This document shows positions 47,830 to 54,587 of a stretch of DNA of 64,000 nt, piece by piece. The notes beneath the pieces are model-generated. The model worked only from the letters and a program-made list of their open reading frames with translations, searched no databases and had not been told where the DNA came from. Position 1 is the stretch's first letter, and the number at the start of each line of letters is the position of its first letter. Origin of the DNA: Prochlorococcus sp. AG-347-J22 (lineage in GTDB: Bacteria; Cyanobacteriota; Cyanobacteriia; PCC-6307; Cyanobiaceae); the NCBI GenBank assembly GCA_003279005.1, contig QCBY01000002.1, forward strand, positions 1-64,000, read 5' to 3'. The position numbers and the translations under genes are program-made.

Positions 47830-48336
47830 TTGAATATTCCCAACTTATTATCGATATCCCGCCTTTTCCTTGTATTCCCATTAATACTTTTTTTAGAAAT
47901 TAACAGACCTATTTATGTTTTTATATTGATTATTATTGGAGGTTTAACTGATTATTTTGACGGGTTAATTGCAAGGAAGTTTAATCTTAAAACCAGATTA
48001 GGAGCTATCCTTGATCCCTTAAGCGATAAAGTATTCTATTTAATTCCATTAACCTTCCTTTGTAAAAATAATTTAATACCTTTCTGGTCTTTATCATTAA
48101 TTTTATTTAGAGAATTAATTATCTCTAGCCTGAGGAACTCTACAAAAGACGGTTTGCCAGCATCTATGTTGGGTAAATTTAAAACATTTTTCTTTTTTAT
48201 TTCAGTAGTCACCTTCTTTACACCACTAAAAATAAGCTTATTGAATAATTTGGCATTAATTTTTTATTGGTTAGGATTCATTCTGACTTTTGTTACTTTA
48301 TTAGGCTATTTAAGAATTAAAAAGAATATGATCTGA
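47830..48336 (+). CDS. pgsA: CDP-alcohol phosphatidyltransferase (phosphatidylglycerophosphate synthase-like)
   Basis: This 168-residue membrane enzyme has the family motif DYFDGLIARKFNLKTRLGAI followed by LDPLSDK, matching D-x2-DG-x2-AR-x8-G-x3-D-x3-D (about residues 42-67). Several membrane helices surround it. It probably makes phosphatidylglycerophosphate, the precursor of phosphatidylglycerol, the only phospholipid of thylakoids. The start is TTG (47830). Its 3' end overlaps the convergent epimerase gene by 27 bp. Confidence 0.88.
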   Translation: MNIPNLLSISRLFLVFPLILFLEINRPIYVFILIIIGGLTDYFDGLIARKFNLKTRLGAILDPLSDKVFYLIPLTFLCKNNLIPFWSLSLILFRELIISSLRNSTKDGLPASMLGKFKTFFFFISVVTFFTPLKISLLNNLALIFYWLGFILTFVTLLGYLRIKKNMI

Positions 48337-51800: not shown

Positions 51801-52355
51801 ATGAAAATAATTCAATGGGTCCTAATAGCATTAATTTTCTTAAGTTCATATAAAGCAAATGCCTATAGAGATTCTAATAGTTACGATGGCAACATCTTTC
51901 CTATATATGCAGGTAATGGGGCTATAGTTCCTCCCCAGACAACTCTTCAGGAATCATTAAAAAATAAAAGAGTCGCAGTTTTATTTTTTTATCTTGACGA
52001 TAGCTCAGACAGTAAAGCTATGGCGCCGATAATATCTGGTTTAGATTTGATATGGAGAAATAATATAGATATCATTGCTCTAACTACCGATGAATTACAA
52101 AATAAAGAAAAGTCTGATCTCAGAAATGAACCTAATTACTATTGGAACGGTTTAATTCCACAAACAATCATTTTAAACACTGATGGTGAAATTAAATATG
52201 ATCAAAATGGAATTATTAATATCGATGAATTAAATAAAGTTATAGGAGAGTTAAAAGGAATTGATATAAATGATACGGAATTTTCTGTAGAAAGTTTTAA
52301 TGAATACAACAGTATCATTTCTGAAAAAAAAGATAAAAACAAAAAAATTAATTAA
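51801..52355 (+). CDS. Exported thioredoxin-fold protein without CxxC
   Basis: This 184-residue protein has a signal peptide (MKIIQWVLIALIFLSSYKANA; likely cleavage after ANA) and a thioredoxin-like domain, with RVAVLFFYLDDSSDSKAMAPI in the place of the usual CxxC region and LIPQTIILNTDGEI carrying the cis-Pro region. It has no Cys, so it cannot act as a disulfide exchanger. The layout resembles the Slr1796-type cyanobacterial proteins linked to photosystem I accumulation; that assignment is from memory. It follows DUF3685 by 14 bp. Confidence 0.6.
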   Translation: MKIIQWVLIALIFLSSYKANAYRDSNSYDGNIFPIYAGNGAIVPPQTTLQESLKNKRVAVLFFYLDDSSDSKAMAPIISGLDLIWRNNIDIIALTTDELQNKEKSDLRNEPNYYWNGLIPQTIILNTDGEIKYDQNGIINIDELNKVIGELKGIDINDTEFSVESFNEYNSIISEKKDKNKKIN

Positions 52356-52363
52356 TTACAAAA

Positions 52364-53531
52364 ATGATATTAATAAATATCCTCTTAGTTCTTTTAATTT
52401 TTTTAATTATTTCTGATTTATATATTAAAAACTCACCCAAATCAAAGTTAAATCTTGTACCTATAAATTACAAAATCAAAAAAAAAAGATGGTTTCAACG
52501 AATTAATTATTGATTTAAAAATAACTAATACAAGTAAAACCAAAGAGACGATGGTATCAAATATAAATTTTGAATTAGATTTTTTTAAAAGTAAAGATAA
52601 CGAATATTGCAAAGATTTAAATTATCAAGAAGATATTTATATACACCATAATAATAAAATTAAGAATTTAAATAATTACTGGCCAACAACAATTATTAAG
52701 TCAAATTCAGAATTATTTGTAAGAATAATATATAAATTTAGCAATAATAACTTTAGAAAAAAAATAAAATATCTATGGTTAAAAGTATTTTGGGAGAACT
52801 ATGGGCATTTTGGTATTTCAAATAATAAGGATTGTTTGTTAATTAATTTAGATGGTCAAAAACAAAAACCTCCAGAAGTTTTTGAAATTCCTTTAAATAA
52901 TAAATATAAAGCTTTTGCTATTAAAACTGATTTACTTGGTTGCTTTGATAATCCAGTAAATACTGTGATTGAATACTGTAAAGGAATTGTAAAAGAAAAT
53001 GATATTCTAACAATCGGAGAGAGTCCCCTAGCGATTATGCAAAATAGATATATTTCCCCTCAAAATTTAGAATATAGTTTATTTTCGAAAGCTTTATGTT
53101 ATTTTTTTCACCCTACAAGCAGTCTCGCAACAGCCTGCGGCATGCAACTATTAATAAATAGAATCGGAGTCACAAGAATAGCCTTTGCACTATTTGTTGG
53201 AATTCTCTTCAAATTATTTGGTATTAAAGGTATGTTTTATAGGTTAACTGGTTCTGAATCGTCTCTCATTGATGATATAAGCGGTACAGTTCCACCTTAC
53301 GACAAGAGTATAGTTATGGGTCCTCTAAATGCGGATTTATTTTGTAAGGAGGTCTCGAGCTATCTGAATATAGATGTTGCTGTAGTCGATGTTAATGATC
53401 TTGGAGGTGTGAAAGTCTTAGCAAGTTCAAATAAAACAGTAAATAAAATACTCAAAAGAAACTTAATATCTAATCCGGCTGGCAATGGAGATGAAAAAAC
53501 CCCTATAGTATTAATAAGAGAAAAAAAGTAA
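52364..53531 (+). pseudogene. F420-0:gamma-glutamyl ligase-like protein, frameshifted at a run of ten A
   Basis: The ORF track begins at 52551, but a 49-codon ORF starting at 52364 encodes the expected membrane-anchored N-terminus (MILINILLVLLIFLIISDLY, then KLNLVPINYKIKKK). Its frame ends in TGA shortly after a run of ten A (52478-52487). In the frame of the main ORF, the sequence after the run reads DGFNELIIDLKITNTSKT and joins the track ORF without a stop. Nine A would fuse both into one 389-residue protein. The main part has SIVMGPLNADLF and DVNDLGGVKVL blocks and GNGDEKTPIVLI, fitting the CofE-like family known in cyanobacteria. It may be a decayed gene, a sequencing or assembly error at the homopolymer, or a gene expressed by slippage. 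Confidence 0.7.
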
Positions 53532-54587
53532 ATGAAAAAAGATACCTCTTATTCTTTTCAATCTAAAAAAGAAATGGAAGTATTTTTTAAAGAACTCCAT
53601 ATTAGACACATTAATCTTTTAATAGATATTAAAAATAAGCAATTGAATAATTGGTTTTTAAAGATGGCAATTATAAATACCTTTGATGACTTAAAAATTT
53701 TTTTAAATAATCTTAAGAAAAATAAAAATAAATGCATAATTGCTATATATGGAAACGAAATTATTGGTTATTTGAATATTTTTCCTTTAAACAAAAAAGA
53801 GACTTGCTTAAAAATATCTAAGCCCAAGTTGATTAACAATAAGTGTTCTTTAACAGATAAACAATTAACTTTAGGATTGATAAAAAAATCTATCTCAATA
53901 AAAGACATAAATACTTCAAGTTGGATAATTAACTCTGATATAAATAATGTTGACCTCATTTCAACCTCAAGAGAATTAGGCTTTCAACCGTTAGGAGAGA
54001 TAATCCTTTGGGATGGTTCTAATCTAAATAAATCCATAAAGCAAAATACCAATTCCTATGGATTAAGTAATGAATTCCAAAACATTAATAAACAAAATAT
54101 AGTAAAAATAGTGAATTTCATAAGATCAAATCAATCCCCCTTAATTAGAAATATTTTAGATTTTGATCAAGACGACATTCTTAAAAGAAATAACTCTAAA
54201 AGCGCTGCCTTAATTTATGAAAATTCAGTTTTATGTACAATTTTAAAAGATATAAATTATCAAAACGAAGATATATATACTTTAACTATAAGTAGATATT
54301 GGGATAAGAGATTCAATTTTAATTTAAAAGAATTTATAAAAAGATTTTTTGAAAAATCTCCTGTTTCATATTTAAAAACCTATAAAGAAAATACTCAATT
54401 AAATCTTTTTCTCGAAGAATGTAATCTCAAAGAAAAAAATCAAGAAATAATTCTTATCAGGAACACAATAGTTAAGAATGAAGCCAAACAAGTGAATATA
54501 ATAAATCAATCTTTGGAATCAATCTTTGAAAAATTAGGTCCACAAGGTGATCCATATCCATCTCCTTTTCCATTAAAAACCAAGTGA
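53532..54587 (+). CDS. Conserved hypothetical protein with GNAT-like segments
   Basis: This 351-residue protein has segments that resemble two N-acetyltransferase-type halves, such as [19 protein letters not shown] (about 64-82) and [17 protein letters not shown] (about 143-159), but the acetyl-CoA loop is not clear. It ends with a Pro-rich tail [13 protein letters not shown] recall unnamed cyanobacterial homologues next to ruvX. It begins directly after the ligase-like gene and overlaps ruvX by 4 bp (GTGA), so it is part of that operon. Function is unknown. Confidence 0.55.

Follow-up and report, generated by a model that had tools for sequence, protein, structure and literature searches.

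The window, by which we mean the whole 64,000-nucleotide stretch of Prochlorococcus sp. AG-347-J22 DNA analysed here, contains a gene that is divided between two reading frames at a long homopolymer (Table 1). Direct reading of the forward strand gives a run of exactly ten A (A10 hereafter), and a short ORF starts upstream, passes through the run and ends in a TGA 8 codons 3' of it. The shifted frame picks up at the GAT immediately after the run, reading DGFNELIIDLKITNTSKT, and then remains open to the end of the gene. When the two frames are joined, they encode 388 residues plus a stop, and the product aligns with the intact gene of the nearest relative at ~95% identity across all 388 residues, a similarity that, judged by alignment, is greater than chance would give. 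These data agree with the initial annotation as to the exact position of the run and the separation of a 49-codon ORF from an open frame that leads into the longer ORF. That annotation placed the TGA just after the run, whereas the stop is present but lies further downstream, and it expected nine A to yield one protein of 389 residues; the frames do join, albeit into a product one residue shorter. A search for repeats near the run returned AT-rich imperfect pairs only.

Table 1. Features at and around the divided CofE-like gene (positions in the window).
Feature	Coordinates	Strand	Basis
Upstream ORF, 184 aa, no Pfam match; stop 8 bases before the ATG at 52364	51801..52355	+	ORF list, Pfam
Short ORF for the N-terminal part, 49 codons, with a predicted membrane-anchor helix and 8 out-of-frame codons past A10	52364..52513	+	ORF list; helix 2-23 in the model of an intact orthologue
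Run of ten A; relatives mostly have A8 then G, or A9, all in frame	52478..52487	+	Sequence and allele comparison
Rest of the gene, read in the shifted frame: predicted Ig-like beta-sandwich and CofE-like fold; without internal stop	52488..53531	+	ORF list, alignments, model, fold search
ORF as a gene caller would give it, 326 aa from the first ATG of the shifted frame, an internal Met; Met63 invariant and internal in the orthologue alignment	52551..53531	+	ORF list, alignment
Downstream gene of 351 aa with no intervening base; nothing above the Pfam cut-off	53532..54587	+	ORF list, Pfam

A structure model (m5a97fec0d10f) was built on the orthologue L031:4815-5978, with a mean pLDDT of 77.5. 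In line with the membrane anchor previously proposed for the N-terminal ORF, the model of this intact orthologue predicts an N-terminal helix at residues 2-23. Between this membrane helix and the CofE-like fold lies a beta-sandwich (~29-161), for which the fold search returned ApaG-like and other beta-sandwich matches, and which appears as an addition to the CofE-like fold. The top Foldseek matches for the C-terminal region were the Archaeoglobus CofE structures 2phn, 2g9i and 7uld (best E 1e-5, prob 1.00), at TM-scores of only ~0.3 by query and ~0.5 by target for a model of this mean pLDDT. The Pfam F420_ligase family (PF01996) gave 12.8-12.9 bits for the window protein and its closest orthologue, below the cut-off of 25, and the best of the distant cyanobacterial homologues scanned reached 24.0 bits, again under the gathering cut-off of 25; a profile search of solved structures found no match. 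The label CofE-like, carried over from the initial annotation, is thus supported by the top fold matches, at the low TM-scores given, and only weakly by sequence (12.9 bits against 25), and we regard it as a fair description of the fold rather than a demonstrated membership. Compared with CofE itself, the F420-0:gamma-glutamyl ligase of COG1478, the window protein shares the C-terminal fold matches but differs in its score below the Pfam cut-off, its extra membrane helix and beta-sandwich, and its identity of ~11-13%, and its ligase activity is putative. Members of COG1478 can use other substrates, as illustrated by the chlamydial protein that replaces folC in E. coli (PMC1971073), and the cyanobacterial protein may therefore act on F420-0 or on another substrate. 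Homologues of the same layout are present across cyanobacteria, where they adjoin a second conserved gene; from Prochlorococcus to distant cyanobacteria, the CofE-like gene has a gene of 340-440 codons as its downstream neighbour (window 52364-54587; L210, L215, L222).

The source assembly (G000) is a draft of a high-light-type Prochlorococcus, 1,411,991 bases in 36 contigs and 86% complete. Its nearest named relatives, AG-449-G23 among them, are single-cell amplified genomes, and we infer that G000 is one as well. We searched for the gene in 60 related genomes, in 266 genomes of the genus and in a named collection, and intact copies were found almost throughout. Of the 115 distinct alleles, 109 have an uninterrupted frame from end to end (381-389 codons), contig ends cut two, and four are broken, those of the window, G140, G079 and G203. 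The longest A run in the region is eight in 77 alleles and nine in 16; ten is found in the window alone, and every other allele is in frame at the run. The commonest state is AAA AAA AAG, and the A9 forms carry an A instead of this G or of the neighbouring 5' base. Of the A9 alleles among the 115, no other has shifted to A10. A pattern search for the exact A10 context in the 266 genus genomes gave 15 matches, only the window's falling inside the CofE-like gene, so that no other genome of this set carries the context in that gene. The initial annotation had suggested comparing run length in close strains and had counted the same split in relatives as evidence against its reading; the comparison makes A10 private to the window, and the relatives are without the split. 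Titles and abstracts on Prochlorococcus homopolymer frameshifts contain no report of the CofE-like gene.

The remaining broken alleles each have a lesion elsewhere in the gene. G140 (L162/L171), a 64%-complete draft, has a private frame break near codon 166, where a short A run contains an indel, and G079 (L170/L172), a single-contig draft that is 90% complete, has a private break near codons 240-248. In G203 (C15 ~25434; L169) the gene joins, at about codon 180, sequence resembling the antisense strand of a pgsA-like gene (window 48036-48212), a junction that is perhaps an amplification chimera. Among the matches listed, no genome at least 99% complete has a broken copy, and the CofE-like gene had no match in 5 of 87 near-complete genomes.

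These comparisons make it hardly credible that the locus holds two separate genes, one for a small membrane protein and one for a soluble CofE-like protein that starts at 52551. A start codon is indeed present in both frames, but the intact relatives all encode one gene of 381-389 codons over the site, and in distant cyanobacteria, whose gene is an undivided ORF, Met63 is a conserved internal residue. According to the model, a protein starting at 52551 would moreover lack its anchor as well as the initial strands of the sandwich.

We then considered whether the gene carries signs of decay, as had also been proposed. With the run masked, the terminal branch leading to the window allele has 13 nonsynonymous and 18 synonymous changes against 939:1128 for the remaining tips (rank 54 of 97; p = 0.72), and no stop or indel besides A10 was found in the gene. 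Because further lesions are absent and nonsynonymous changes stand in a normal proportion to synonymous ones, the sequence shows no sign of a gene in decay, and recent decay is unsupported. The undecayed remainder fits either an erroneous base in an intact gene or a mutation too recent for follow-on changes.

The same intact remainder bears on transcriptional slippage, under which the gene would truly be A10 and would be expressed as an anchored full-length protein together with a truncated product, as in Buchnera and Blochmannia. With ten A, the run is of a length at which RNA polymerase can slip (at least 8 A; PMC6260861), slippage by the bacterial enzyme is highly efficient in vivo on nine A or T (PMC5009743), and poly(A)-tract frameshifts in otherwise intact Blochmannia genes have been read as slippage-rescued (PMC3017870). 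An undecayed remainder is, however, expected equally from an error, and slippage-maintained frameshifts are recognised by their conservation between populations or species (PMC3017870), whereas such conservation is absent among the 115 alleles compared here. The window gene resembles the Buchnera and Blochmannia cases in its AT-rich genome, an A run of at least nine, a single indel and an otherwise intact coding sequence; it differs in that some of those frameshifts are conserved and some have transcript evidence (PMC3017870), while that of the window is private and known from DNA alone. The slippage-expressed gene envisaged by the initial annotation is thus not borne out, and we consider slippage a very improbable explanation.

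Two other genes in the same draft bear more directly on the origin of the extra base. The rpoB gene of G000 (C1:22368-25659, minus strand; L181-L182) is split at codon 181 by a single additional A that turns A5 into A6. It is the sole match in a Pfam search and thus a single copy; in the other genomes, rpoB is uninterrupted wherever the match extends across it, and contig ends account for most of the partial matches (for G193, the first match was considered). The beta subunit of RNA polymerase, encoded by rpoB, is indispensable, and a cell without it cannot live. Nor would rescue by slippage be expected for this A6, since it falls below the threshold of E. coli RNA polymerase, which shows no detectable slippage on fewer than 8 A (PMC6260861). 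With a single-copy rpoB broken, its loss incompatible with life and its A6 below the slippage threshold, the draft must therefore hold at least one false +1 A insertion, and the rpoB split is evidently an assembly or amplification error. The second gene encodes a bioC-like methyltransferase (C1:7483-8137; L181), which is intact in relatives and is split in G000 by an extra A at an A8 run; an A10 at C1:7687 was ruled out as the lesion, the change of frame occurring at the A8 run shortly 3' of it. The best matches of this bioC (82-87% identity) are in genomes with a distant CofE-like gene (for example G015, G022 and G025), close relatives reaching only 65-69%, a pattern of sequence identity that suggests horizontal replacement of bioC in G000.

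A survey of frame breaks covered ~751 kb of the 1.41 Mb of G000 and 960 kb of the near-complete draft G084, with ORFs aligned by gapped DNA alignment, and compared 459 ORFs over 392 kb of aligned coding sequence. Many of the changes of frame that it suggested proved to be compensated gaps or to come from indels lying 5' of the real start codon. Three clear internal frame breaks were found in G000, in the CofE-like gene, bioC and rpoB, and all three consist of a single extra A in an A-run, which corresponds to 0.77 breaks per 100 kb of coding sequence. The reverse comparison revealed no clear frame break in G084, and the same was true of G084 against G083. In 204 kb of G109, another single-cell draft, there was likewise no clear break, and judged from this draft, false +1 A errors of such kind are not frequent. 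A fourth candidate in G000, a +1 T in a Fur-like gene (C4:7721-8325), is ambiguous and does not enter the count, as its break falls within a 5' extension that may be non-coding; C6:7942-9872, C1:158716-159746 and C1:117448-118807 were dropped as frame breaks on the basis of one-frame protein matching.

The coding samples also allowed A-runs to be compared with the numbers expected under codon shuffling. Coding runs of at least ten A number 2 against ~23 expected in G000, 2 against ~9 in G084 and 0 against ~10 in G083, while runs of A6-A8 are at or above expectation in all three genomes, which indicates a sharp threshold at about ten A.

A benchmark of the Prochlorococcus single-cell workflow reported an average of 3.0 indels per 100 kb (PMC6122165), a rate that would, by analogy, be ample to account for the three breaks in G000. 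The observed 0.77 per 100 kb lies below this average and counts against an artefact, and according to a companion benchmark paper, P. marinus single-cell assemblies had the fewest indels. The window lesion resembles the homopolymer indel errors of such assemblies (PMC6122165) in being a private +1 A in an A-run, in a fragmented and incomplete draft in which an indispensable gene has also been struck. It differs in that the single-cell status of G000 is deduced from its size, contig number and relatives and that G000 is known from a consensus assembly.

Taken together, the extra A is private to G000, the gene is otherwise undecayed, and a single-copy gene that the cell cannot do without also carries a +1 A in this draft. 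Of the three explanations offered by the initial annotation, a homopolymer error is the best supported, because rpoB and bioC of the same assembly carry +1 A insertions and no relative has A10; slippage gained no positive evidence, and decay fared no better. We therefore consider it probable, at about 0.72, that A10 is an artefact of amplification, sequencing or assembly and that the gene, whose product is membrane-anchored and has a CofE-like fold, is intact. Its false origin, most likely the same as that of the rpoB insertion, would lie in one of these steps. An A9 to A10 slip also occurs in cells, and this lesion could be real even though that of rpoB is not.

The main rival to an artefact is accordingly a real, very recent and private +1 slip on an A9 allele, which would remove the anchored protein and represent either the onset of gene loss or a short-lived deleterious mutant. 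One slip would be enough, given that an A9 precursor exists in the 16 alleles with that run length, and the depletion of coding runs of at least ten A in the genus suggests that such runs are mutable or harmful. The gene may also be dispensable, as the different private frame breaks of G140 and G079 and the near-complete genomes without a match would suggest. Against this stand the impossible +1 A in rpoB of the same draft, the failure of any other A9 allele to become A10 and the lack of a broken copy, among the matches listed, in any genome at least 99% complete. On balance, we regard a real private mutation as unlikely.

If A10 is an artefact, as we favour, the living cell would carry an ordinary intact gene for a 388-residue protein in which a single anchoring helix is followed by an Ig-like beta-sandwich and, at the C terminus, by a domain with a CofE-like fold, and the tenth A would be a false +1 insertion, made during DNA amplification, sequencing or assembly, on a naturally occurring A9 allele. 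The locus thus offers a caution: when a long A run seems to divide a gene in a draft or single-cell genome, the first check should be of an indispensable gene in that assembly, before slippage, decay or phase variation is invoked. It is highly improbable, more so even than slippage expression as such, that a real A10 acts as a slippery or phase-variable switch in this free-living marine cyanobacterium, giving a mix of membrane-anchored full-length and truncated CofE-like product. Were such a switch to exist, poly(A) slippage rescue would extend beyond endosymbionts, and a real and expressed A10 would be an instance of rescue by homopolymer slippage in a photosynthetic cell that ranks among the most abundant in the ocean.
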